A program made the translations under genes and the position numbers. Positions 1 through 56,454 of a stretch of DNA of 64,000 nt are shown here, in pieces. The stretch comes from Opitutaceae bacterium. GTDB taxonomy: Bacteria > Verrucomicrobiota > Verrucomicrobiia > Opitutales > Opitutaceae. The notes under the pieces are model-generated. The model was not told where the DNA came from, did no database searches, and saw nothing but the letters and a program-made list of their open reading frames with translations. The stretch is taken from positions 1-64,000 of the forward strand of contig JAEUGY010000016.1 of assembly GCA_016794625.1 (NCBI GenBank), given 5' to 3'. How positions within the stretch are numbered: the first letter of the stretch is position 1; every line of letters begins with the position of its first letter.

Positions 1-1814
1 CCGAAGCGGCGGGCGTACTGGCCGATGGACACCAGCAGCGGCATGGGATCGTCGTGCAGGGTGAGGCTTTCCAGTTTGAGCTCCTCGAGGCAGCGATCCC
101 CAAATTTTTCCAGATAGGCCTGGTAGCGGGCGGCGAACTCCGGTGCAGTCGGCACCCAGCGTTCGATCTCGGCGCGGGTGCCGGTGCAGAGCAGCGTCGT
201 GGCGGACACGTCGGCGGTGATGAGTGCGACGAGTTCACGCACGCGCTGGGCCGGTTCCGCGCTGATCATGCCGCCCTCACCGCAAAGCAGGTCGTTCTGC
301 AGGGAACCGTCGCGGTCATCGCACCAGCGGGCCGTCAGCTTCTTGGCGACGCCGTAGAAGATCATGGCGAAGAAGTCGTTCACCAGTGGCGCGTCCCACT
401 TCAGCAGAAGCTGGCGCTCCAGATCCCGGTAGTGCGCGGCCAGCTCGTCGGGACGCTGGTCCTCGAGGGCGACGGCGGGCGGAAGGAGCGCCGCGTTGAG
501 CCGCCGGTAGAAACGGGAGATTTGACGCGGGAGCGTGAGGTGATTGCGCAGCAGCCCGAAAGTCGCCCCGGTCAGCGCGAACGCGTCACGGATTTTCCCC
601 CACCGACCGACGGGCACGAGTTTCTCCAGCACTTCCGGCGGCAGCCCTTCCTTCACGCCCATCATCTGCTCCATGAAGCCGCGGTTGACGGAGAACCCCG
701 GCAGCAGGGCGAGCAGCCGGTACCAGCTGATCAGGTTGTAGAAGACCTGTCCCCGGATCAGCCCGAGCATGCGCGGAAAGAGATCGCGGTTCGCCTCCAC
801 CGTGCGCTCCGACACGCCCATCAGACGGGCGAATTCCCGGTAGACGGCTTCGTAAATGCTGCGGGCGAAGGAAAACGTCAGCGGTGTGGTGACCCCGCTG
901 TAGCTCTCGGCGATGTTGGCGTTGTCCCAGAGCGTCAACTCCCCGTCGGGATCGGCCAGCGGGCCGAGCGAGGTGATGGGACGCGATTGCAGCAGCCAGA
1001 TTTTGCCCCCGCTCAGCGCCCATTCGATATCCTGCGGACGCCCGAAGAACCGTGCGGTCGCCCGCGACAGCGCGGCCACGGTTTGGGCGTGCTCGTCGGT
1101 CAGCGCCGGGAGCGACCCCTTGGTCGGCGGCAGCGGGTGGGCGGCCAATCCCTCGGCGGAGCCCGGCGCGGCGAGATGGACCGTGGTCTTGCGGGCGATG
1201 GCGCGGTGCAGGACCCGGCCGTCGCGTCCGACGGTGAACGTATCCGCATCGCACTCACCCGAGACCAGCGACGATCCCAGCCCGAAGACCGCGGAGACGA
1301 TGGCATGGCCGCGATGCCCGCCGACCGGATCGGCACTGAAGGCCACGCCCGCCGAGTCGGCCTCGATCATGCGCTGTACGAGCACGGCGGTGGCGAGGGA
1401 CGATTCGGGCAGGCCCCGTTCCCGTCGGTAGGCGAGGATGCGCTCGCTGAAGCCCGAGCGCCAGACCGCCTCCACCTTTTCCAGCAGCCGGTCGAGCGGC
1501 ACGAAGAGATAACTGTCCAGCTGTCCCGCGAACGAGTGTTCGGCCCCGTCTTCGTCGACCGCGGATGAACGGACGGCAAAGAGCACCGGTTCCGTGGACA
1601 AGGCCCGGGCGGCGGCGAGAATGCCGTCGGCCATCCCCGCCTTGAGTTGGAACTCCGCGCCGATCCGGGAGGGCGGGAACGCCTCCGGCAGGATGACGAA
1701 CCACTCCGGGATGGGCAGGGCGGTGCCGCTCAGCCGCGCGAGCGCGCCGGCCTTGCCACCCAGCCGCGCGCCGGCGGGGATTCGGTCTTGGTGACGGATC
1801 AGGTGCGAGGTCAC
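1..1814 (-). CDS. PEP synthase / pyruvate phosphate dikinase-like protein (partial, runs off left edge)
   Basis: The minus-strand frame is open from GTG 1814 to the window edge (about 604 residues visible). The N-terminal ~320 residues have the ATP-grasp signature of PPDK_N proteins: GGKAGALARLS near the start, VRSSAVDEDGAEHSFAGQ, VQRMIEADSAGVAFSADP, and DIEWALSGGKIWLLQSRPIT. The helical middle region (AESYSGVTTPLTF, LIRGQVFYNLISWYRLL) is that of the PEP-synthase / rifampicin-phosphotransferase branch. The swivelling phospho-histidine domain would lie beyond the edge and cannot be checked. GTG 1814 is 6 bases from the stop of the UbiA gene, so the two are almost certainly cotranscribed. Family membership is clear. 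The acceptor (pyruvate, an antibiotic or a metabolite) is not known. A classical gluconeogenic PpsA would not be expected to sit behind a prenyltransferase. Confidence 0.85.
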   Translation of the reverse strand, partial: MTSHLIRHQDRIPAGARLGGKAGALARLSGTALPIPEWFVILPEAFPPSRIGAEFQLKAGMADGILAAARALSTEPVLFAVRSSAVDEDGAEHSFAGQLDSYLFVPLDRLLEKVEAVWRSGFSERILAYRRERGLPESSLATAVLVQRMIEADSAGVAFSADPVGGHRGHAIVSAVFGLGSSLVSGECDADTFTVGRDGRVLHRAIARKTTVHLAAPGSAEGLAAHPLPPTKGSLPALTDEHAQTVAALSRATARFFGRPQDIEWALSGGKIWLLQSRPITSLGPLADPDGELTLWDNANIAESYSGVTTPLTFSFARSIYEAVYREFARLMGVSERTVEANRDLFPRMLGLIRGQVFYNLISWYRLLALLPGFSVNRGFMEQMMGVKEGLPPEVLEKLVPVGRWGKIRDAFALTGATFGLLRNHLTLPRQISRFYRRLNAALLPPAVALEDQRPDELAAHYRDLERQLLLKWDAPLVNDFFAMIFYGVAKKLTARWCDDRDGSLQNDLLCGEGGMISAEPAQRVRELVALITADVSATTLLCTGTRAEIERWVPTAPEFAARYQAYLEKFGDRCLEELKLESLTLHDDPMPLLVSIGQYARRF

Positions 1815-1820
1815 GGGCGA

Positions 1821-2723
1821 CTAGGATTTGAGCCAAAGGGGAACGACGCCGAGCACCAAGTAGAGGGCGAGGGTCCAGACGCCCGAGAGCGTCTCGATCC
1901 GCTTGGACGCCTTGGGCTCGGGGGAGTGCAGGAAGGCGCGACCGCAGAGAGCCGCGACCACCAGGCAGGTTCCGAGCACTGCGAACAGCGGCGCGGCGAA
2001 GGCGATGCGCGCCCCCGCGAACCCGGCGCAGATGAGCGTCGCGCCCATCGCCGCCAGCCACGCCAGCACCGCGATGCGCGGACCCCAGAGCACCGAGTAG
2101 GTTTCGACGCCGGGTTCCTCCTGCCCGGGCGAGCGGATCTTGCGACCCAGTTCGATCACAATGCCGTTGCAGAAACTCGCCGCCAGAAACCAGAACAACC
2201 CGGGCGGCATCGTCCCTCCCGCGTACACCCAGTCGCACCCGGTCGCGAACCAGTCGACCAGCGGCATGATGGCCATGTGACTGAACAGATAGACCACCGG
2301 CCGGGCCTTCAGCCACGCGCGCACAAAAAACTCCCGGCTCATCAGGGCGAAATAGATCCAGGTGACGGCGAGCAGCCCGACCAGTTTCCAGCCGATGAGG
2401 AGGGCAAGGGCCAGCTGACCGACCGCCACGCCGACCCCGATCCAGGCGAGTTCGCGCAGGCGCACGAGGCCGCGTGGCACCGGGCGGTAGGGGCGGTATT
2501 TGGCGTCCTCTTCCTGATCCTTGAATTCGTCGGCGATACGCAGCAGCAGGAAGGAGCCGAGCGAGACCACAAACGCGACCGCGAACGAGCGCAGCGAAGG
2601 CGCCGTCGAGAACCCGCGCAGCAAGGCCGAGTAGCTCACCGCCGAGGCGCTGAACGCGAGGATCAGCGGGCCATGCGCGGCGAGAGGGAAACGCTCGCGC
2701 TGATAGATCCACCACCGGTTCAT
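1821..2723 (-). CDS. UbiA-family prenyltransferase
   Basis: This 300-residue integral membrane protein has about eight or nine hydrophobic helices. An Asp-rich loop reads RIADEFKDQEEDAKYRPYRP followed by VPRGLV, which matches the first prenyl-diphosphate/Mg-binding motif of UbiA enzymes and the usual conserved 'RP..rG' stretch. A second acidic, polar loop (ELGRKIRSPGQEEPG.ETY) lies around residue 195, where the second motif is expected. The family transfers prenyl groups to aromatic or other acceptors in the inner membrane. The substrate cannot be told from the sequence. The gene lies directly upstream of the PEP-synthase-like gene. It is separated from the HMG-CoA reductase gene by about 560 bases of repeat-rich DNA, so a common transcript is possible but unproven. 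Confidence 0.85.
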   Translation of the reverse strand: MNRWWIYQRERFPLAAHGPLILAFSASAVSYSALLRGFSTAPSLRSFAVAFVVSLGSFLLLRIADEFKDQEEDAKYRPYRPVPRGLVRLRELAWIGVGVAVGQLALALLIGWKLVGLLAVTWIYFALMSREFFVRAWLKARPVVYLFSHMAIMPLVDWFATGCDWVYAGGTMPPGLFWFLAASFCNGIVIELGRKIRSPGQEEPGVETYSVLWGPRIAVLAWLAAMGATLICAGFAGARIAFAAPLFAVLGTCLVVAALCGRAFLHSPEPKASKRIETLSGVWTLALYLVLGVVPLWLKS

Positions 2724-2957
2724 GCGGAAGGATTCGGATTAAGCGCGACGTCGCGGAGACGCGAAGGTCGGACGCGAAGAAGGCATCGACTCTGCATCCC
2801 GATGGGGGGCTGCCCCTTGCGGGCACGCCTGGCTTTGCAGACTGAATACCGTTGCATGGACGTGAGGTCCCAGGATGCCAGCAGGGTGTGGTTTTGGTTG
2901 CGCAGAGCGGTTGATCTTTCGACGCGAGGCGTGGCCGCGAGGGCCAGCCCTACAATG

Positions 2958-3061
2958 AGTGGGGTCGCCGACCCCGCGGAGGGGCGTGTTGCGTGTACAC
3001 ATCGGATCATGGAGGCGGGACCGGTGGGTCCCGTCGCGGCCTCAGCGAGGCCACCTCCAAC
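2958..3061 (+). repeat. Composite palindromic repeat A+B, copy 1
   Basis: Module A contains GGGGTCGCCGACCCC, a short hairpin. Module B contains two hairpins, GGGACCGGTGGGTCCC and GGCCTCAGCGAGGCC. The B end (CCACCTCCAAC) is complementary to the A start seen in other copies (GGTGGAGGTGGGG), so the whole element can fold on itself. The same arrangement recurs at 4766-4875 and, reversed, at 11574-11683. Confidence 0.85.
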
Positions 3062-3107
3062 GGAATCGTGTCTTGGCGCATCGTAGTGCGTTCCAAGGTC
3101 GGCGTTT

Positions 3108-3170
3108 GGTGGAGGTGGGGTCGCCGACCCCGCGGGGATTGGCGTCGCGTGAACACATCGGACCCTGGAG
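3108..3170 (+). repeat. Solo module A of the composite repeat
   Basis: It starts GGTGGAGGTGGGGTCGCC and continues into the same 'ggcgtcgcgtgaac' spacer found at 4796-4812. After this only a stub of module B (ctggaggagcagggcg) is left. It looks like a decayed composite element adjacent to copy 1. Confidence 0.75.
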
Positions 3171-3284
3171 GAGCAGGGCGTTTCCGGCGTCGGATGATAG
3201 AGCGGGTGCGCTGGCGCGCCCGCTCGAGGCGGTCCTAACCGACAGAATGTATCCATAGCGACCTACAATCGGTTGCTCCGCGCA

Positions 3285-4601
3285 TCATGTCGGTTCGTCG
3301 CCGGAAGGCGCTTCCGCGGCCGCCTTCCCGTTCTTCTGTCCCCGGGCGAGGCGGGCGTGGGCCTGGGTGAATTGACCGGCGGCGAGGGCGGCGATGATGG
3401 AGATTTCCCCGGCCAGCGCGAGGGCGGCGCAGACCTCGGAGAAGGCGCGGGCGTGGCCCGGGCCGGCGAGGCCGAGGATCTCCAGGCAGGCGCGCTGCGT
3501 GGGCAGCCCGGTGCCACCGCCCACCGTGCCGATGATCAAGTTGGGCAGCGTCACCGCGGCGTACAGTTCGCCCTCCGTCCCGACCTCGAAGCGGGTGACA
3601 CCGACCGCGGCTTCGGAGACACAGGCGGCGTCCTGCCCGCAGGCGATGAAGAGGGCGGTCAGGCCGTTCGAGTAGTGTCCCTGCACCCCAATTGTTCCGC
3701 TGAGCACGCCGCCGAGGGCGGACATGCGCCAGTAGTCCACCATCTTTTCCGGCGTGGTGTGGAGGTGGCGGGTGACCATTTTGCGGGAGATGCGCACCTC
3801 GGCGCTGACTTTGCGTCCGCGCACACCCTGGAGCGATTGGGCGCTGGCCTTCTTGTCGCCCGACATGTTGCTCTCGACGAAGAAATACTGCGGTTTCAGC
3901 GGGCACGCCGCGGCGATGTGGTCGCACACCGCCTGCGTGGCAATCGTCACCATGTTCTGCCCGGATGCATCGCCCGTGGTGAAATCGAACATCAGGTACA
4001 CATGATTGCCCTCGATGGCGAAACGCACGTCGAGCAGCCGACCGTGCCGCGTCGTGCCCTCGGCTGCGGCGCGCAGGTCCTCCATGTGCTGCAGGCACCA
4101 CTGCACGAAACTCCCCGCCTCAAGCAGCGTCCGGAAGGCGTAGGCCGGGGCCCGCGCCACGCCCTCATTGAGGATCAAGGTGGTGCAGCCCCCGGCGAGC
4201 GTCACCACACTCGCGCCGCGGTGATAACTCGCGACCAGTGCCGCCTCGGTCGTGGCCAGAGGCACGTAGTAATCGCCCTGGGCGCAGAGCCCGTTGACCC
4301 GCAGCGGCCCGGCCAGGCCCACGGGCAGGTTCACGGTGCCGATGAAGTTTTCGATGTTGCGGGCGTAAAGGTCATGACGGGACAGCGAGGCGGCGTCCGC
4401 AATCTCTGCCCGGGCCCCGGCGGCGTGTGGGATCAGCGCCCAGCGTTTTTCCACCACATCCGGGGATGATTGGGTGGCGAGCGGCACCCGCGGTGGCGAG
4501 GCGTGCTGTTTCGGAGCGAGCCGGCGGGCCAGTTCTTCGGGCGACAAGCCCGTCGAGAGGCGTTCCAGGTGATTCCGGGCCCGATCATGCGAGGCAGGCA
4601 T
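3285..4601 (-). CDS. Hydroxymethylglutaryl-CoA reductase (class I-like)
   Basis: This 438-residue enzyme is expected to reduce HMG-CoA to mevalonate. The class I blocks are in order: ENFIG..NLPVGLAGPL (84-100), ATTEA with the catalytic Glu near 119, GDASGQNM (210-217, where textbook class I enzymes have GDAMGMNM), SGDKKAS with the catalytic Lys at 250/251, GQDAA with the catalytic Asp at 324, and a C-terminal His at 415 (QFTQAHARL). All catalytic residues are present. ATG 4601 is preferred over GTG 4640 because homology starts well inside and the extra 13 residues look like untranslated leader. The gene is divergent from the sulfotransferase/P450/exporter operon. No other mevalonate gene is in the window, so this could be a dedicated supply step for a local product. 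Confidence 0.9.
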   Translation of the reverse strand: MPASHDRARNHLERLSTGLSPEELARRLAPKQHASPPRVPLATQSSPDVVEKRWALIPHAAGARAEIADAASLSRHDLYARNIENFIGTVNLPVGLAGPLRVNGLCAQGDYYVPLATTEAALVASYHRGASVVTLAGGCTTLILNEGVARAPAYAFRTLLEAGSFVQWCLQHMEDLRAAAEGTTRHGRLLDVRFAIEGNHVYLMFDFTTGDASGQNMVTIATQAVCDHIAAACPLKPQYFFVESNMSGDKKASAQSLQGVRGRKVSAEVRISRKMVTRHLHTTPEKMVDYWRMSALGGVLSGTIGVQGHYSNGLTALFIACGQDAACVSEAAVGVTRFEVGTEGELYAAVTLPNLIIGTVGGGTGLPTQRACLEILGLAGPGHARAFSEVCAALALAGEISIIAALAAGQFTQAHARLARGQKNGKAAAEAPSGDEPT

Positions 4602-4675
4602 GGCAGGTGTTAGGCGGAACGGGAGAGGCCCTTCAACCACGAAAGAAGGCCGGCCAGCCAGCCGGGGGCTGGCTG

Positions 4676-4711
4676 GAATGACGAATGACGAATTCCGAAT
4701 GACGAATGGCG
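4676..4711. repeat. AATGACGAA short tandem/inverted repeat
   Basis: The run gaatgacgaatgacgaattccgaatgacgaa contains three copies of the same 9-mer around a central gaattc palindrome. It lies in the untranslated gap between two divergent genes. Its function is unknown. Confidence 0.6.
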
Positions 4712-4765
4712 GAGGGAGCTGTAGGCCGGGACGTCATCACAAGTCTCGATCCGATGCCCACGCCC

Positions 4766-4875
4766 GGTGGAGGTGGGGTCGCCGACCCCGCAGGGATTGG
4801 CGTCGCGTGAAGAGAACGGACGACGGAGGCGGGACCGGTGGGTCCCGTCCCGGCCTCAACGAGGCCAGCTCCAAT
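4766..4875 (+). repeat. Composite palindromic repeat A+B, copy 2
   Basis: This complete element runs from GGTGGAGGTGGGGTCGCC to GGCCAGCTCCAATGG, with the A hairpin, the spacer ggcgtcgcgtgaa and both B hairpins. It overlaps the 5' part of a longer reading frame leading into the sulfotransferase. That is the reason the sulfotransferase start was moved downstream. Confidence 0.85.
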
Positions 4876-4942
4876 GGAAGGGGAAGGCAGTGGTTCCAGG
4901 AATTGCCTCGCCTCGGTCGGGGGGGCGCGTAACTCAGTCCGG

Positions 4943-6061
4943 ATGCGCGCCGCGCTCAAGCACCGCTGGAGCTTGTCCCATAACTACCTGGCCGGCATCA
5001 CTGCGGGCGCCTGGTGGCGGCTGTTGCGTGAGAACGACTTCGCGGTTTCTCCGGCTTACTGGCACCGGGCGGCGTTTATCTCGGTGACCAGCCTGCTCAA
5101 CGCCTGGTATGCCCGCCGCGAACGTCGCCGGTTTGGCGCCCTTGTTGCCGCGGCCCGGGTTCACCCGGAGCCGCTCTTCATCCTCGGGCACTGGCGCAGC
5201 GGCACGACCCACCTGCACAACCTGCTCGCCCTGGATGAGCGATTTGCCTTCGCCAACACCTACCAGGTGGTCAACCCGGCCACGTTTCTGACGACGGAGG
5301 ACGTGAACGCGAAGCGCTTTGCCTGGATGGTGCCGGCCAAGCGGTTGATGGACAATATGGCGCTGAGCTTTCAATCGCCTCAGGAGGAGGAATTTGCGCC
5401 AGCCTTGCTCTCCCTGCGCTCCCTTTACGTCGGCATGTCGTTCCCGCGCCGGATGGCGCATTATGAGCGTTTTCTGACCTTCGATCAGGCGACTCCGGCC
5501 GACGAGCAGGCGTGGAAGGCGGCGCACCTCGAGTTCACGCAAAAACTGTCCTACAAGTACGGTGGGCGTCCCCTGTTGTTGAAGTCGCCGCCCAATACCG
5601 CCCGCGTACGGATGCTGCGCGAGCTGTTTCCCCGGGCGCGGTTCGTGCACATCCATCGCGACCCCTACACCGTCTATCAAAGCCAGCTGAAGTTCTACGA
5701 CACCGTGCTCTGGCACACCTACCTCCAGCGACCGGATCGCACGCGGTTGGGCGATGAAATCCTCGCCCGGTACCGCACGGTCTTCGACGCCCTGTTCCGT
5801 GATGTGCCGTCGATTCCGGCGGGACAGTTCTGCGAGGTGTCGTTCGCGGAGCTCGAACAAGATCCCGTGGGCACGGTGGAACGCATCTATGCGACGCTGG
5901 GCATGGACGGATTCGCCCCGCTGCGCCCGAAACTCGAGACCTACGTGGGTTCGCTGCGGAACTACGAGAAAAACACCTTTGCGCCCCTCGACGAGCCGAC
6001 TCGCGCGAAGGTCCGTGCGGCGGCCGCCGCCTGTTTCGACCGCTGGGGCTATCCACGATGA
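4943..6061 (+). CDS. Sulfotransferase (Sulfotransfer_3 type)
   Basis: This 372-residue protein transfers sulfate from PAPS. The 5'-phosphosulfate loop FILGHWRSGTTHLHNLL is near residues 78-94, and the 3'-phosphate block RFVHIHRDPYTVYQSQ is near 233-248. LLLKSPPNTAR before the second block is also typical of the family. ATG 4943 was chosen because upstream in-frame codons lie in a repeat. A G-rich stretch sits about 17 bases upstream, so the ribosome site is weak. The stop overlaps the P450 start (ATGA), indicating translational coupling. The acceptor is likely a small hydroxylated lipid or terpenoid, given the neighbours, but this is inference. Confidence 0.85.
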   Translation: MRAALKHRWSLSHNYLAGITAGAWWRLLRENDFAVSPAYWHRAAFISVTSLLNAWYARRERRRFGALVAAARVHPEPLFILGHWRSGTTHLHNLLALDERFAFANTYQVVNPATFLTTEDVNAKRFAWMVPAKRLMDNMALSFQSPQEEEFAPALLSLRSLYVGMSFPRRMAHYERFLTFDQATPADEQAWKAAHLEFTQKLSYKYGGRPLLLKSPPNTARVRMLRELFPRARFVHIHRDPYTVYQSQLKFYDTVLWHTYLQRPDRTRLGDEILARYRTVFDALFRDVPSIPAGQFCEVSFAELEQDPVGTVERIYATLGMDGFAPLRPKLETYVGSLRNYEKNTFAPLDEPTRAKVRAAAAACFDRWGYPR

Positions 6062-7470
6062 AACGCGTGTCCCCCGACGCCCCCGACCGCCACGATCCAC
6101 CCGCAGCCGGGCGTGCGCCCAGCCCACCTGGCACCCGGGTTCTGGGCCACGCCCGGGCGTTCCAGCGCGATCCCTTGGGGTTCCTCCTCACCACGGCGCA
6201 GACCTGCGGGCCGGTGGCCCGGTTGAAACTCGGGCCGCTGACCTATCACCTCGTGTCGGATCCCACCCTGATTGCCGAGGTGCTGCAGGTCCGCCCCTCC
6301 AACTACCTGCGCGACACCCGCAGTTCCCGCCGCGTCCGGATGGTGACCGGGGAGAGCCTCCTGACCTCGGAAGGAACGGCCTGGCGACAGCAGCGTCAGG
6401 CCGTGCAGCCCATCTTCCATCACCGCAACCTGATGGACCTCGGTCGGACCATGCTGACGGTCGTCGACCAGGCCTGTGTGGGTTGGGAGCGCGCGGCGGC
6501 GACCGGGGCCACGCTCGACCTCGTGACCGAGATGAGCCGGTTGTCGTTTGCGGTCGCCGGGCGGTGCCTGCTCGGGGCGGAGGTTCAAGGTCGCGTCGGT
6601 GAGGTGGAGGCGGCGTTTCCTGTGCTGCTCGACGAGCTCTTTCGCCGCACGAGTGGGGTCGCCAATCTGCCGCTCTGGCTCCCCCTCCCGCGCCACCTTG
6701 CCTTCCGCCGCTCGCTGGCGGCGATCCACCGCATCGTGGCGGACATCATCGCCGACCGCCGTCGCGCCGGAGCCGGGTCGCGGCCGGCGACGGTGGACCT
6801 CCTGGGTTTGCTCCTGCAGGCGCGCACGGAACAAGGCGCGCTGCTCAGCGACGAGGACCTGCGCAACCATGTCGTCACGTTCCTGCTGGCGGGCCATGAG
6901 ACGACGGCGAGTGCGCTGACCTGGGCGTTTGCCCTCCTCGCGACCGCGCCTGCCGAGCTGGAGCACGTGCAGACCGAGCTGGATCGCGTGGCGTTCGATG
7001 CGCGTGAAACGGGAGCCATCGAAACCCTGCCGCAGCTGGAACAAATCAGTGCGGTGCTGCAGGAGACGCTCCGCCTGTATCCGTCGATCTGGATCGTCGA
7101 ACGGCGCGTGGTGGAGACGGACGATCTGGGGGGCTGGCGAATTCCCGCCGGCAGCGCGGTGGTGGTGGCGCCCTATGTCGTGCACCGCCAGCTTGGCCGC
7201 TGGGACCAGCCCGAGGTGTTCTGCCCGGCGCGATTTCGGACCAGTGAGCCGCCCCTGTTGCTGCGCGATGGTTATTTTCCCTTTGGCGCGGGACCGCACA
7301 CCTGCATCGGACAGCATTTCGCACTGATGGAGGCCAAGGTCATCCTGGCGACCCTGTTGTCGCGCTTCCGCGTGACCCTGCTGGAGGGCGCGCTGCCGGC
7401 GCCGGTGGGCGGCATCACCCTGCGACCCTCCGCGGCGGTGCCCATCCGGGTGGAACGGCGACGATCATGA
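6058..7470 (+). CDS. Cytochrome P450
   Basis: This 470-residue soluble-type P450 has the oxygen-binding I-helix AGHETTASALTWAF (about 280-293), the ExxR motif ETLRLYP, and the heme loop FPFGAGPHTCIG with the proximal Cys at 416. The overall pattern resembles the CYP4/CYP102-like bacterial group that often hydroxylates fatty acyl or isoprenoid chains. It overlaps both neighbours by 4 bases (sulfotransferase upstream, exporter downstream). No fused reductase is present, so external redox partners are needed and none is seen nearby. A hydroxylation followed by sulfation is the simplest pairing with the sulfotransferase. Confidence 0.92.
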   Translation: MKRVSPDAPDRHDPPAAGRAPSPPGTRVLGHARAFQRDPLGFLLTTAQTCGPVARLKLGPLTYHLVSDPTLIAEVLQVRPSNYLRDTRSSRRVRMVTGESLLTSEGTAWRQQRQAVQPIFHHRNLMDLGRTMLTVVDQACVGWERAAATGATLDLVTEMSRLSFAVAGRCLLGAEVQGRVGEVEAAFPVLLDELFRRTSGVANLPLWLPLPRHLAFRRSLAAIHRIVADIIADRRRAGAGSRPATVDLLGLLLQARTEQGALLSDEDLRNHVVTFLLAGHETTASALTWAFALLATAPAELEHVQTELDRVAFDARETGAIETLPQLEQISAVLQETLRLYPSIWIVERRVVETDDLGGWRIPAGSAVVVAPYVVHRQLGRWDQPEVFCPARFRTSEPPLLLRDGYFPFGAGPHTCIGQHFALMEAKVILATLLSRFRVTLLEGALPAPVGGITLRPSAAVPIRVERRRS

Positions 7471-9047
7471 GTGCACCCGCGACCCCTTCGCCTGGTCAGG
7501 ACTCCCGCCGCCCGCTCGCCCGATGGGTTCTGGTGACCTCCATCCTTGCCTCGAGCATGGCGTTCATCGATGGCACCGCGCTGAGCGTCGCGCTGCCCGC
7601 GCTGCAGTCCGATTTCGGAGCCACCGGAGCGAATCTCCTCTGGGTGACAAATGGGTTTTCGCTCCCGCTCGCGGCGCTGCTGCTCTTTGGCGGGGCGCTC
7701 GGGGACCACTACGGCCGGCGACGCACCTTCATGGCCGGGATTGGAGTGTTCATCGTTGCCTCCATGGCGTGCGGATTGGCGCCGACCGTCGAGGCGCTGA
7801 TCGCGGCGCGGGTGGCGCAGGGCGTCGGGGCGGCGATCATGATTCCCGGATCGCTCGCAATGATTTCCAGCTATTTTGGACCGGCCGAACGTGGCCGCGC
7901 GATTGGCACCTGGTCGGCGTTCAGCGTGCTGGCCACGACTCTGGGACCGGTGCTCGGAGGACTGCTCGCGGGCGCGAACCTCTGGCGCGGCGTCTTCTTC
8001 ATCAACCTGCCCCTCGCCCTCGGCGCCCTGGCGATCCTCGCGCTCAAGCTCCCGCCGGACGAAGACGCGGCGGCTGGACATCGACTCGACCTGCGGGGTG
8101 CGGTGACTGTGACGACGGGATTGGCCGCGCTCAACTTTGGGTTGATCCGGTGGTCGGAGCACAGCCTCGGCGATCTCTGGGTCTGGGGCCCGCTGGTCAC
8201 CGGCGTGCTGGGGTTGGGCCTGTTCGTGCTGACCCAGCTCAAGGGGAAACAACCCTTGCTTCCGCTGGGCATTTTCAGGAACCCGGTGCTGGCGGGTGCG
8301 AGCGTCGTCAGCTTCCTGTATTACACGGCGTTTCACGGGACGCTCTTTTTTCTGCCGCTCAATCTCATCCAAGTGCAGGGCTACAAACCGGCGATGGCGG
8401 GCCTCACCCAGGTGCCGCTCATGGTCCTGCTCATTGCCCTGTCGGCCATGGCGGGGCGCTGGGTCGACCGCAAGGGACCCCGCTGGCCCCTGACGGTGGG
8501 CAGCGGCATCACCGGAGTGGGACTCCTGCTCCTGGCTTTTCCCGGAGTGACCGCTGGGGCCGGTGAGTTTGCGTCCCGCTTTCTCCCAGGTCTGCTCGTG
8601 GTCGGTGTGGGTCTTGGACTCACGGCGACCCCGGTCAGCACCACGCTGATGACCTCGGTCGCCTCCGATCAACTCGGCCTCGCTTCGGGAATCAATAGCA
8701 GCCTCACCCGCCTCGCCGGGGTCTTCGCCATCGCCGTGCTCGGACCGCTGATGCTCGCGCTGTTTGCCCACGGGCTGACAGCGCGGGTGGGGCAGCTCGG
8801 ACTGCCCGCCGCGGCGGTCGAGCAGGTGACCCGCGACGCCGCGAAACTCGGCGCCACCCCGCTGCCGGCGGGACTGGACGCTCCCGCGGCGGCGGCGGTG
8901 CAGGCCGCGATCCAATGGGCCTTTGTCGATGCGTTTCGCTGGATGGTGGGGATCGCCGCCGGACTGTGCTGGATCGCGGCGATCGTGGCGGCGGTCGTTC
9001 TACGGCCGACAACGCCCGGCCCAGGGCGGAGTGGTTTCCGGACGTGA
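7467..9047 (+). CDS. MFS drug/metabolite exporter, DHA2 (14-TM) family
   Basis: This 526-residue membrane protein has the DHA2/EmrB-QacA hallmarks: motif D1 FIDGTALSVALPALQ, the A-type loop GALGDHYGRRRTF, ARVAQGVGAAIMIPGSLAMI, and motif C around GPVLGGLLAG. The length and number of hydrophobic stretches suit 14 helices. It starts inside the P450 stop (ATGA). Its place as the last gene of a sulfotransferase-P450 operon suggests export of the operon's product or self-resistance. The substrate is unproven. Confidence 0.88.
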   Translation: MSAPATPSPGQDSRRPLARWVLVTSILASSMAFIDGTALSVALPALQSDFGATGANLLWVTNGFSLPLAALLLFGGALGDHYGRRRTFMAGIGVFIVASMACGLAPTVEALIAARVAQGVGAAIMIPGSLAMISSYFGPAERGRAIGTWSAFSVLATTLGPVLGGLLAGANLWRGVFFINLPLALGALAILALKLPPDEDAAAGHRLDLRGAVTVTTGLAALNFGLIRWSEHSLGDLWVWGPLVTGVLGLGLFVLTQLKGKQPLLPLGIFRNPVLAGASVVSFLYYTAFHGTLFFLPLNLIQVQGYKPAMAGLTQVPLMVLLIALSAMAGRWVDRKGPRWPLTVGSGITGVGLLLLAFPGVTAGAGEFASRFLPGLLVVGVGLGLTATPVSTTLMTSVASDQLGLASGINSSLTRLAGVFAIAVLGPLMLALFAHGLTARVGQLGLPAAAVEQVTRDAAKLGATPLPAGLDAPAAAAVQAAIQWAFVDAFRWMVGIAAGLCWIAAIVAAVVLRPTTPGPGRSGFRT

Positions 9048-9315: not shown

Positions 9316-9365
9316 AAGGCGGGACCGGTCGGTCCCGTCGCGGCCTCAGCGAGGCCACCTCCAAC
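9316..9365 (+). repeat. Solo module B of the composite repeat
   Basis: It has the hairpins GGGACCGGTCGGTCCC and GGCCTCAGCGAGGCC and the terminal CCACCTCCAAC. Module A is absent. Confidence 0.85.
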
Positions 9366-9499: not shown

Positions 9500-10078
9500 A
9501 TGAAACGTCTGTCCCTCCTGACCGCCACCTGCGCTCTGTTTCTCTCTGCTCTTCCCCTCGTTCAAGCCGCCCCGGAAGATCCCGCGCACAACGAACTGCG
9601 CGCCCTGCGAACCCAGATCATCGACGCGATCACCAAGGGCGATATCGACGCCGTGTTGACGCACGTGCACCCGAAGGTGGTGGTGACGTGGCAGAATGCC
9701 GAGGTCTGCCGCGGCGCGGCCGGACTCAAGGAGTTCTTCGAGCGCATGGGCCGGAAGTCGTTCAAGGGCTACAAAGTCCCACCCACGCCCGATGACCTGA
9801 CCCAGTTGTATGGGGGCGACATGGGCGTGTCGTTCGGCCATGTGGTCGGCCAATACACGCTGCTGGGCAAGGAGCTCGAATTCAAAAGCCGCTGGACCGC
9901 GACCCTCGTGAAGGAAAACGGCAAGTGGCTCCTCGCCAGCTACCACGTTTCGTTCAACGCGCTCGACAACCCCCTGCTCAATGCCGCGGAGAAGTCCCTC
10001 ATCTGGGTGGCCGCCGGCACCGGCGTGTTGGGCGTGCTGATCGGCGTGTTCCTTGGTCGCCGGAAACCGGCGGCCTGA
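9500..10078 (+). CDS. Secreted/anchored SnoaL-like (NTF2-fold) protein
   Basis: This 192-residue protein has a clean signal peptide (MKRLSLLTATCALFLSALPLVQA). The NTF2/DUF4440-like core contains ITKGDIDAVLTHVHPKVVVTWQNAE and W.ATLVKENGKWLLASYHVS. A C-terminal hydrophobic helix (WVAAGTGVLGVLIGVFLG) is followed by RRKP, so it is probably held in the inner membrane with the domain in the periplasm. The family covers small-molecule binding and isomerase folds, and no catalytic residues can be named. ATG 9500 is preferred over upstream codons because the signal peptide starts there. Confidence 0.7.
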   Translation: MKRLSLLTATCALFLSALPLVQAAPEDPAHNELRALRTQIIDAITKGDIDAVLTHVHPKVVVTWQNAEVCRGAAGLKEFFERMGRKSFKGYKVPPTPDDLTQLYGGDMGVSFGHVVGQYTLLGKELEFKSRWTATLVKENGKWLLASYHVSFNALDNPLLNAAEKSLIWVAAGTGVLGVLIGVFLGRRKPAA

Positions 10079-10136
10079 GCGCGTCCCCGCCACTCGCCGC
10101 TTGAAGGGGCGGGGCGCCAGCCTAGGGTCGGGTGCC

Positions 10137-11561
10137 ATGCGCTCACCTCTGGTCGGCCTGCGTTGCGCCCTCCTGCTGGCTGTTTTGCCGGCCCTCTTCG
10201 CGGCCGACACGGCGCGTCGGGGTCGCACGGAAACCGCGCTCGACCGCTATGTCGCGCAGCCGGATCCCAGTTTTCGCTGGACCAAGACCGCCGAGCTGAG
10301 CGATGGCACCGGCACTGCCTATGTCCTGGACCTCGTATCCCAGCACTGGCTCACCCCGGCCGAGGTGAACCGCACCGAGTGGCGGCACACGCTGATCATC
10401 ATCCGGCCCAACCAGGTCGACCACTCGACCGCGCTGCTCTCCCTTTCCGGAGGCTCGAACCTGCCCGGCCAGCCCCCGCGGCCGTCCCGCAGCCTGATCG
10501 AACTGGCGCGGGCGACCCGTTCGGTGGTGGTCGAACTCCGCCAGGTGCCCAACCAGCCGCTGATGTTCCACGGTGATGGCAAGGACCGGGTCGAGGATGA
10601 CCTGATCGCCTACACCTGGGTCCAGTATTTGAAGACCGGTGACGAACGCTGGCCCGCGCGCCTGCCCATGACCAAGGCGGCGGTCCGGGCGATGGACGCC
10701 GCCACGGCGTTTCTCGCCAGCGCCGAGGGGGGCGGTCTGACCGTCGACCGGTTTGTGGTCTCCGGCGGGTCGAAGCGCGGCTGGACCGCATGGACCACGG
10801 CCGCGGTTGATGCCCGTGTGGTCGGGCTGGCCCCGTTCGTCATCGACGTCCTCAACATCGAGGACTCGATCAAACACCACTACCGCGCCTATGGATTCTA
10901 TGCGCCGGCGGTGGGCGACTATGTGCGGCACGGCGTGCTCGACTGGCATGACACCCCGGAGGCTGCGGCGCTGTACACGATTGAAGACCCCTTCTTCTAT
11001 CGGGACCGGTTCACCCTGCCGAAACTCATGATCAACGCCGCGGGCGACCAATTCTTCCTGCCCGACTCGTCGCGCTTCTATTTCGCCGAGCTGCCCGGAC
11101 CGAAATTCCTGCGTTACATCCCCAATACCGATCACAGCCTGCGCAACACGGATGCCTTCCAGACGCTCACCGCGTGGCACCATGCGCTCCTGCACCAGAC
11201 ATCGCTGCCGGAGTTGACCTGGAGCCGCGGCGCCGACGGCAACCTCACCGTCACAAGCCGTACCCGGCCGGTCGCGGCCGTGTTCTGGCAGGCGCACAAT
11301 TCCAAGGCGCGGGACTTCCGGCTCGAGTCGCTCGGACCCGTCTGGACGTCGACCCCCGTCGAGGCCAATGGCGACACCTTTTCCGCGCGCATACCCACGC
11401 CCGCGGAGGGCTGGGCGGCCTGCTTCATGGAACTGACCTTTGACCTCGGTGGCCCGACTCCGCTCAAACTGACCACCGAGGTCGTGGTCAGCCCCGATAC
11501 CCTGCCGTTCCCGACACCCCCCGCGCCACAACCCAAGGGGTTTATCCGAAAAGACAGGTGA
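10137..11561 (+). CDS. PhoPQ-activated pathogenicity-related (PqaA-type) alpha/beta hydrolase
   Basis: This 474-residue protein starts at ATG 10137, where a signal peptide begins (MRSPLVGLRCALLLAVLPALFA). Family traits include DRYVAQPDPSFRW near the mature N-terminus, VEDDLIAYTWVQYL, and VVSGGSKRGWTAWTTAAVD with the likely nucleophile Ser. Also present are INAAGDQFFLPDSSRFYF and PNTDHSL with the likely catalytic Asp/His. The C-terminal ~130 residues form a beta-rich domain. The family is widespread in Verrucomicrobiota and Bacteroidota glycan loci but has no firmly known substrate. It is probably exported to the periplasm or cell surface. Confidence 0.85.
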   Translation: MRSPLVGLRCALLLAVLPALFAADTARRGRTETALDRYVAQPDPSFRWTKTAELSDGTGTAYVLDLVSQHWLTPAEVNRTEWRHTLIIIRPNQVDHSTALLSLSGGSNLPGQPPRPSRSLIELARATRSVVVELRQVPNQPLMFHGDGKDRVEDDLIAYTWVQYLKTGDERWPARLPMTKAAVRAMDAATAFLASAEGGGLTVDRFVVSGGSKRGWTAWTTAAVDARVVGLAPFVIDVLNIEDSIKHHYRAYGFYAPAVGDYVRHGVLDWHDTPEAAALYTIEDPFFYRDRFTLPKLMINAAGDQFFLPDSSRFYFAELPGPKFLRYIPNTDHSLRNTDAFQTLTAWHHALLHQTSLPELTWSRGADGNLTVTSRTRPVAAVFWQAHNSKARDFRLESLGPVWTSTPVEANGDTFSARIPTPAEGWAACFMELTFDLGGPTPLKLTTEVVVSPDTLPFPTPPAPQPKGFIRKDR

Positions 11562-11573
11562 CGACTCCGTTCC

Positions 11574-11683
11574 GTTGGAGCTGGCCTCGATGAGGCCGGG
11601 ACGGGACCACCGGTCCCGCCTCCGACGTCCGCTTTCATCACGCGACGCCCGTCCCCGCGAGGTCGGCGACCCCACCTCCACCG
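11574..11683 (-). repeat. Composite palindromic repeat A+B, copy 3 (reversed)
   Basis: Read on the minus strand, the order is module A, the cgtcgcgtga spacer and module B, as at 4766-4875. Its outer ends (GTTGGAG and CACCTCCACC) are near-complementary. It is followed at about 11775-11815 by a lone right arm of the accacggaatgcacgg hairpin repeat (ctctgtgcacgcggtgctctctgtggttaa), just before the sulfatase start. The gap 11562-11826 contains nothing else I recognise. Confidence 0.85.
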
Positions 11684-11826
11684 GACGGCGACTTCGAAGC
11701 GCGGTTACATTGACGCGCATCCGCAGCCGAGCCTTTGCCTTCGTGGGTAAGGCCTCTTCGTTCCGTTCTCCTGGAACTTCACTCTGTGCACGCGGTGCTC
11801 TCTGTGGTTAAACGGATCGCGTGAGG

Positions 11827-56404: not shown

Positions 56405-56454
56405 GGACGCGGGACCGCTTGGTCCCGTCGCAGCCTCAGCGAGGCCGCCTACAA
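56405..56454 (+). repeat. Solo module B of the composite repeat
   Basis: It has the hairpins GGGACCGCTTGGTCCC and GCCTCAGCGAGGC, ending GCCTACAAG. It sits between two convergent genes. Confidence 0.8.

Follow-up and report, generated by a model that had tools for sequence, protein, structure and literature searches.

A seven-gene cassette of possible lipid biosynthesis genes was found through a 64,000-nucleotide stretch of an Opitutaceae genome (assembly GCA_016794625.1, contig JAEUGY010000016.1, positions 1 to 64,000; this whole stretch is referred to as the window). The cassette encodes a protein similar to 3-hydroxy-3-methylglutaryl-CoA (HMG-CoA) reductase (HMGR), a UbiA-family transferase, a rifampin-phosphotransferase-like protein, a DUF3419 (BtaA-like) protein, a CdsA-like membrane protein, a tandem GNAT protein and an OleC-like AMP ligase. 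We estimate a probability of about 0.5 that it makes an uncharacterised amino-ether membrane lipid, with the HMGR-like enzyme reducing an acyl thioester other than HMG-CoA and a neighbouring cytochrome P450 and sulfotransferase decorating the product. This reading was built on direct observation of the gene content, order and spread of the cassette, the co-occurrence of the sulfotransferase-P450 pair with it, the failure to find HMG-CoA synthase (HMGS) and mevalonate-type GHMP kinases in the genome, and residue swaps in HMGR.

The HMGR, UbiA and "phosphoenolpyruvate (PEP) synthase" genes of the window are genes 1-3 of the cassette. The source genome comprises 6.4 Mb in 127 contigs and is 95% complete. 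Base 1 of the window is also base 1 of its contig (C68) and falls inside the third leftward gene, the PEP-synthase-like one, so this gene is cut. The remaining operon was found at the end of another contig of the same genome (C42, read as locus L043), whose terminal bases repeat codons present on C68. A single cassette is split between the window and L043.

Species genomes scanned with the HMGR protein gave 30 HMGR loci, and 49 loci were examined overall. The four downstream families were identified through an all-against-all comparison of the open reading frames (ORFs) of the fetched loci. Of the 30 HMGR loci, 25 also contained UbiA, which immediately followed HMGR in 24, and two of the five loci without UbiA were contig ends within 80 bases. 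The adjacency of HMGR and UbiA is not a matter of chance. The PEP-synthase-like gene was in the same locus in 22 of the 30. All seven genes were present in 18 of the 49 loci, many others being cut by contig ends. One gene order prevailed, with rearranged blocks in L032, L033, L075, L077 and L080. Complete cassettes were carried by Opitutaceae and other Verrucomicrobiota, Gammaproteobacteria (e.g. Alkalilimnicola, Thiodiazotropha and Halothiobacillaceae), Geobacter and a plasmid of Roseinatronobacter (Alphaproteobacteria). Five or six of the genes were found in Cyanobacteria (L019, L021), a planctomycete (L032) and a nitrospirote (L033). On the Roseinatronobacter plasmid the seven genes are contiguous across the record start and keep the cassette order. 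They are annotated there as UbiA, PEP/pyruvate-binding, DUF3419, two hypotheticals and AMP-binding, and HMGR, which spans the record start, is unannotated. Searches of an open-access literature library, which leaves out most subscription papers, gave no description of the cassette.

Two samples, both including the genome of the window, were used to survey the cassette within the phylum and the family. Cassette HMGR was present in seven of 150 Opitutaceae genomes. Another member of the family, G123, carried the part from DUF3419 to GNAT on a short contig and gave no HMGR match. Among 387 genomes of the phylum, 21 had the CdsA-like gene and 15 had cassette-type HMGR (at least 398 bits), and all of the 15 were among the 21. 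Six of the 21 had no cassette-type HMGR; two of these, L080 and L081, have the remaining six genes in one place. G320 has its CdsA-like gene and HMGR at separate sites, with no further cassette gene within the stretches read. Phospholipid genes stood in a few flanks, as MFS-PlsC-AMP-ligase proteins (L013, L075; MFS, major facilitator superfamily) or as a phospholipase D (PLD)-family gene before HMGR (L017, L040). Aas-like, PLD, radical SAM and metallo-beta-lactamase (MBL) flanking genes were rejected as core members because they occurred in few loci only.

The organism uses the methylerythritol phosphate (MEP) route, and both Dxr and IspE are present in its genome. HMGS (PF01154) was not found in the genome, while the same search was positive in seven of 14 control genomes. 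A search with PF00288 revealed only two GHMP kinases in the genome, IspE (171.2 against an NCBIfam cut-off of 138.7) and galactokinase (246 against 226.65). Against the mevalonate kinase model the galactokinase-type gene scored 70.2, the cut-off being 163.05. Neither a GHMP mevalonate kinase, a phosphomevalonate kinase nor a decarboxylase was found in the genome. At a genome completeness of 95%, it is improbable, though possible, that a mevalonate gene was missed. A full mevalonate pathway elsewhere in the genome, the housekeeping explanation considered in an earlier, sequence-only reading of this DNA (the original prediction), was rejected since neither HMGS nor mevalonate-type GHMP kinases were found. 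The dedicated function which that reading expected of a lone HMGR agrees with what we observed, a co-inherited pathway in an MEP organism.

The HMGR-like protein of the window scored 323.8 bits against TIGR00533 of NCBIfam, below the cut-off of 441.8. We aligned 76 HMGR sequences, or 69 after seven near-copies were dropped (36 cassette-type and 33 others), and set the residue positions against human and archaeal structures. Cassette-type sequences (n = 42) were defined as matches above 330 tblastn bits plus the cassette-labelled loci, some of them cut off ahead of the next gene. The four catalytic residues, Glu559, Lys691, Asp767 and His866, are all present in the window sequence and in 41 of the 42, with one gap at His866. 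Position 684, Ser in ordinary enzymes, was Glu in 42/42. Position 735, Lys in ordinary enzymes, was Met in 28 (the window among them), Val in nine and Ile in five. In the non-redundant set both residues were altered in 36/36. Position M657 was Gln in all 42, and His in the ordinary HMGRs of the phylum. Eleven split, partial or frameshifted loci were kept out of the alignment and checked apart. Eight of the nine covering position 684 had Glu and one, the frameshifted L016, had Trp; every one covering position 735 had Met or Val.

By comparison, Ser684 and Lys735 were both kept in 24/24 ordinary sequences within the 33 non-cassette ones. These comprised the human and archaeal enzymes, two Streptomyces enzymes from complete mevalonate operons and 20 Verrucomicrobiota sequences (of the 63 ordinary matches in the phylum, 21 were examined, one being a near-copy). 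The other nine HMGR-like proteins, from Vibrio, Photobacterium, Sphingobacterium, Akkermansiaceae, Alteromonas, one Streptomyces and Sinorhizobium, were solitary or differently placed, and none had Ser684 and Lys735. According to a published account (PMC9500038), Lys735 forms a salt bridge with the carboxylate of HMG, and in the statin complex Ser684 makes a polar contact. With these two residues replaced and the catalytic ones kept, part of the HMG clamp is gone and the reduction machinery stays.

HMGR matches were found in 72 of the 387 phylum genomes: 15 had the cassette type, 63 the ordinary type (at most 216 bits) and six both (G160, G163, G202, G293, G320 and G488). In 6/6 of the latter the second copy keeps Ser and Lys. 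A quick tree, in which long branches were flagged, split ordinary from cassette HMGRs by one branch with a Shimodaira-Hasegawa-like approximate likelihood ratio test (SH-aLRT) value of 96. The weaker-scoring HMGR group was the only one in 57 of the 387 genomes. Fifteen of these were read and kept Ser684 and Lys735, and the mevalonate route may thus operate in several families of the phylum.

In the same quick tree the Vibrio and Photobacterium HMGRs nested among those of gammaproteobacterial cassettes. Three Vibrio and Photobacterium replicons (L082, L083 and L084) carry an HMGR-like gene with Asp for Ser684 and Met for Lys735, and the stretches read showed no further cassette gene. The V. fluvialis gene sits between yccS, which is two small genes apart, and modCBA. 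In Sphingobacterium (L038:2356-5551 and L039:9815-13012) a related HMGR-like gene precedes genes for a CDP-alcohol phosphatidyltransferase, a CTP transferase (from the scan of L039) and a short CdsA-like protein. This lipid operon is a different one, with the HMGR pocket altered in the same way. An Alteromonas macleodii plasmid (L089:1-6026) has an HMGR-like gene with Ala684 and Tyr735 beside AMP-binding, iron-containing redox enzyme family and short-chain dehydrogenase/reductase genes, and on a Sinorhizobium plasmid (L085:4552-9261) the HMGR-like gene lies within a run of acyl-CoA carboxylase genes.

The third cassette protein had been called a PEP-synthase-like enzyme. The ATP domain (PPDK_N) and the C-terminal His swivel were confirmed, but the pyruvate/PEP-binding domain was missing in 7/7 full-length relatives scanned, and a true PEP synthase was therefore rejected. 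In the genome of the window, the portion of this gene on C42 contains just the mobile domain. The best match in the Protein Data Bank (PDB) was 5fbs, named PEP synthase there, which we take to be a rifampin phosphotransferase. The L023 protein scored 830.5 against 883 for the NCBIfam model PRK06241.2-2 and was far below the cut-offs of Rph, PigC and RedH. The family shares the ATP domain, a middle part and the C-terminal His swivel with rifampin phosphotransferase, PigC and RedH, and differs from them in being found with UbiA. In the UbiA protein itself, a motif alignment showed the first motif as DExKDxxxD (NDYADRKFD in E. coli UbiA) in 9/9 sequences, and E-x-x-R-K-[IV] in place of the second Asp motif in 9/9.

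The DUF3419 gene of the window's own genome matched PF11899 with 231.5 bits. In algae, DUF3419 predicts the betaine lipid diacylglyceryl trimethylhomoserine (DGTS), which one study found in 20 of 21 DUF3419-positive algae (PMC6642084). The cassette shares DUF3419, the BtaA family, with the BtaA/BtaB system of DGTS synthesis, but adds six enzymes. No BtaB-type N-methyltransferase was found among the seven cassette families, which were the scope of that search; the rest of the genome was not searched. A DUF3419 protein from a rhizobial plasmid is only 26-28% identical to those of the cassette. On a Rhizobium plasmid (L146:1677-5155) the neighbours of a distant DUF3419 gene encode a 'CoF synthetase', an MBL-fold and a hypothetical protein, and this run may represent another uncharacterised DUF3419 pathway.

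For the CdsA-like membrane protein, Pfam gave no match and Foldseek none with an E value of 0.001 or less. For its first half, the nearest fold was that of cytidine diphosphate diacylglycerol (CDP-DAG) synthetase, with a modest match. A likeness to VTE6/DUF92 was supported by no tool. The GNAT protein folds as a tandem GNAT (7q3a, E 1.3e-15), so that it could plausibly acylate an amine; the fold does not give the substrate. For the AMP ligase the best NCBIfam model was PRK09274 (OleC, the olefin beta-lactone synthetase type), with 390-412 bits against a cut-off of 478. No OleA, OleB or OleD partner was found among the seven cassette families. The presence of DUF3419, CdsA-like, GNAT and AMP ligase members points to lipid rather than terpenoid chemistry.

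The rightward genes of the window encode a sulfotransferase, a P450 and a DHA2-type exporter. The sulfotransferase (PF13469, 120.7 bits) contains RSGTT and HRDP motifs, which we take to be the 5' and 3' binding sites of 3'-phosphoadenosine 5'-phosphosulfate (PAPS); PHROGs gave no match for it. The P450 has what are presumably the heme-Cys loop (FGAGPHTCIG), the ExxR motif (ETLR) and the I-helix motif (AGHETT). A P450 gene followed the sulfotransferase (at least 48% identity) in 9/9 loci. The pair adjoins the cassette in five loci (the window, L016, L023, L027 and L071), which belong to Opitutaceae, another family of Verrucomicrobiota and Gammaproteobacteria, and stands apart from it in G097, G310 and G380. 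In the phylum sample, a sulfotransferase of at least 57% identity was present in four of the 387 genomes, and 4/4 had the CdsA-like gene (a probability of about 6.5e-6 by chance, counted without regard to kinship). Four weaker matches (32-40%) were in genomes without the CdsA-like gene and showed no P450 in the nearest 1.5 kb or so. Among the 150 genomes of the family sample, three had the sulfotransferase, 3/3 together with the CdsA-like gene; the search for the latter covered eight chosen genomes of the family only. As the pair tracks the CdsA-like gene across genomes, the rightward unit likely oxidises and sulfates the cassette product. The expectation that all six genes of the first 9 kb are conserved together was borne out in part: the full six recur only in L016, but the leftward three are widespread and the pair tracks the cassette. 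As for export, a DHA2 gene next to the pair was seen in close relatives only, namely the window, L016 and L078.

These six genes are all present as originally placed, within bases 1-9047. They do not form one run, but two divergent transcription units which fill this region. On the minus strand, the rifampin-phosphotransferase-like gene (annotated PEP synthase) occupies 1..1814. This is its 5' two thirds, with PPDK_N, cut by the contig start; the remainder is at the end of C42 (L043:16682-17656), where the mobile domain, the His motif GSLLSHSAIVARE and the codons overlapping C68 were found. The UbiA-superfamily membrane transferase (PF01040), with its acidic motif 1 and altered motif 2, lies at 1821..2723. 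The 561-base gap between it and HMGR (2724..3284) has interspersed palindromic repeats and no recognised gene; an ORF in it had no Pfam match. The HMGR-like ORF spans 3285..4640 (PF00368, 379 bits). Its conserved start Met is residue 14 of the ORF, and the likely start is at about 4601. The divergent intergenic region (4641..4939) separates the two units and holds one copy of the repeat, and a consensus scan of it found no sigma-70-like promoter. On the plus strand are the PAPS-type sulfotransferase ORF (4838..6061; PF13469, Sulfotransfer_3; likely start at about 4940), the P450 (6058..7470; PF00067) and the DHA2-type MFS exporter (7467..9047; PF07690), which scored 221.6 bits against TIGR00711 (cut-off 230.2). 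Both of the predicted 4-base overlaps, between sulfotransferase and P450 and between P450 and DHA2, are real and read ATGA.

The interspersed intergenic palindromic repeat consists of GGGACCGGTnGGTCCCGTC and GGCCTCnnnGAGGCC, often plus a GTGGGGTCGCCGACCCCGC hairpin. Its copies in the window are at 2959-3065, 3089-3171, 4747-4879, 9317-9365, 11563-11702 and 56411-56428. It had 36 matches genome-wide at no more than one mismatch, and a reversed control had none. The repeat is of the repetitive extragenic palindromic (REP)-like kind. A gene for a PhoPQ_related protein lies downstream of the sulfotransferase, P450 and DHA2 genes both in the window (10053-11558) and in the relative G123 (L078:5211-6635).

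In the amino-ether lipid pathway that we propose, the DUF3419 enzyme would transfer the 3-amino-3-carboxypropyl group of S-adenosylmethionine (SAM) to a lipid hydroxyl. The OleC-like ligase would activate a carboxylate, which the HMGR-like enzyme could then reduce to an alcohol with two NADPH, and the tandem GNAT may acylate the amine. The CdsA-like protein, perhaps prenol-kinase-like, and the rifampin-phosphotransferase-like enzyme would phosphorylate hydroxyls, and UbiA might transfer a group from a phosphorylated donor. The P450 and the sulfotransferase would decorate the product, which in Opitutaceae DHA2 may export. The substrates and the order of the steps are guesses. The cassette HMGR has the same fold and catalytic residues as class I HMGR. 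Its loss of part of the clamp should be read with caution, as it also keeps Asp690, Lys692 and Asn755 and carries Arg, Gln, Lys, Glu or His one position before 735. It differs from class I in Glu for S684, Met, Val or Ile for K735 and Gln for M657, and in its separate operon. A more specific proposal, that the horizontally spread cassette makes ether-linked sphingoid analogues, is unlikely as it stands. A BtaA-type homoserine ether would be reduced by the HMGR-fold enzyme to a 2-amino-4-alkoxy-butanol long-chain base, with the Glu replacing Ser684 holding the ammonium of the substrate. GNAT would N-acylate the base, which would be phosphorylated or, in the lineage of the window, hydroxylated and sulfated. 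To our knowledge, no HMGR-fold enzyme has been found to reduce anything except HMG-CoA, and this would be the first.

The original prediction had joined prenyl supply, oxidation, sulfation and export in one logical pathway. It was right in outline, but its mevalonate and prenyl part is probably wrong, considering the swaps at Ser684 and Lys735 and the failure to find HMGS or mevalonate-type GHMP kinases in the genome; a thioester would rather be reduced to an alcohol in the synthesis of an aminolipid. In its fullest form, HMGR would supply mevalonate for a prenylated, oxidised and sulfated terpenoid, and the rifampin-phosphotransferase-like and CdsA-like proteins would need to replace the mevalonate kinases. 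The retained HMGR fold and catalytic residues, the adjoining UbiA and the presence of two unusual kinase-like genes within the operon are consistent with this. However, two HMG-holding residues are lost, no route from mevalonate to isopentenyl diphosphate (IPP) was found in the genome, MEP genes are present and some genomes hold both HMGR types, which together make such a supply quite improbable. The same failure to find a route to IPP would suit a use of mevalonate as an acyl building block, as in the fungal fusarinine siderophores (SidI/SidF). Here the AMP ligase would activate the mevalonate made by HMGR and GNAT would couple it to an amine, three genes that share one operon. The residue swaps and the lack of an HMGS match count against this as well, and the cassettes without HMGR in L080 and L081 still retain the ligase and GNAT. 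We regard it as very improbable.

A prenyl lipid might also be made from a prenoic acid. The AMP ligase would activate an isoprenoid acid, the HMGR-like enzyme would give the prenol, the CdsA-like protein and a second kinase would form the prenyl diphosphate, and UbiA would attach it to an aminolipid. UbiA motif 1, the fold of the CdsA-like protein, the OleC-like ligase and the hydrophobic residues in place of K735 all fit. But UbiA motif 2 is altered, a Glu at 684 would be unexpected with a wholly hydrophobic substrate and no tool gave a kinship with phytol kinases, so that this route appears rather unlikely to us. Lastly, the two divergent units might be unrelated neighbours, considering that most cassette loci lack the sulfotransferase-P450 pair and that three genomes have it elsewhere. 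Their linkage in five loci of three separate lineages and the 4/4 and 3/3 co-occurrence in the two samples make mere neighbourhood very unlikely.

Genes called HMGR are taken as evidence of the mevalonate pathway, and the cassette HMGR would correct such annotations. It represents a large clade in which the reduction machinery is kept and two residues of the substrate clamp are swapped, here in an MEP organism. It may also explain 'orphan' HMGRs, including those of Vibrio. With the cassette, an uncharacterised and mobile pathway of lipid synthesis comes into view in which sulfation would be an optional branch, and its named carriers (Alkalilimnicola, Geotalea and Roseinatronobacter) make it testable.

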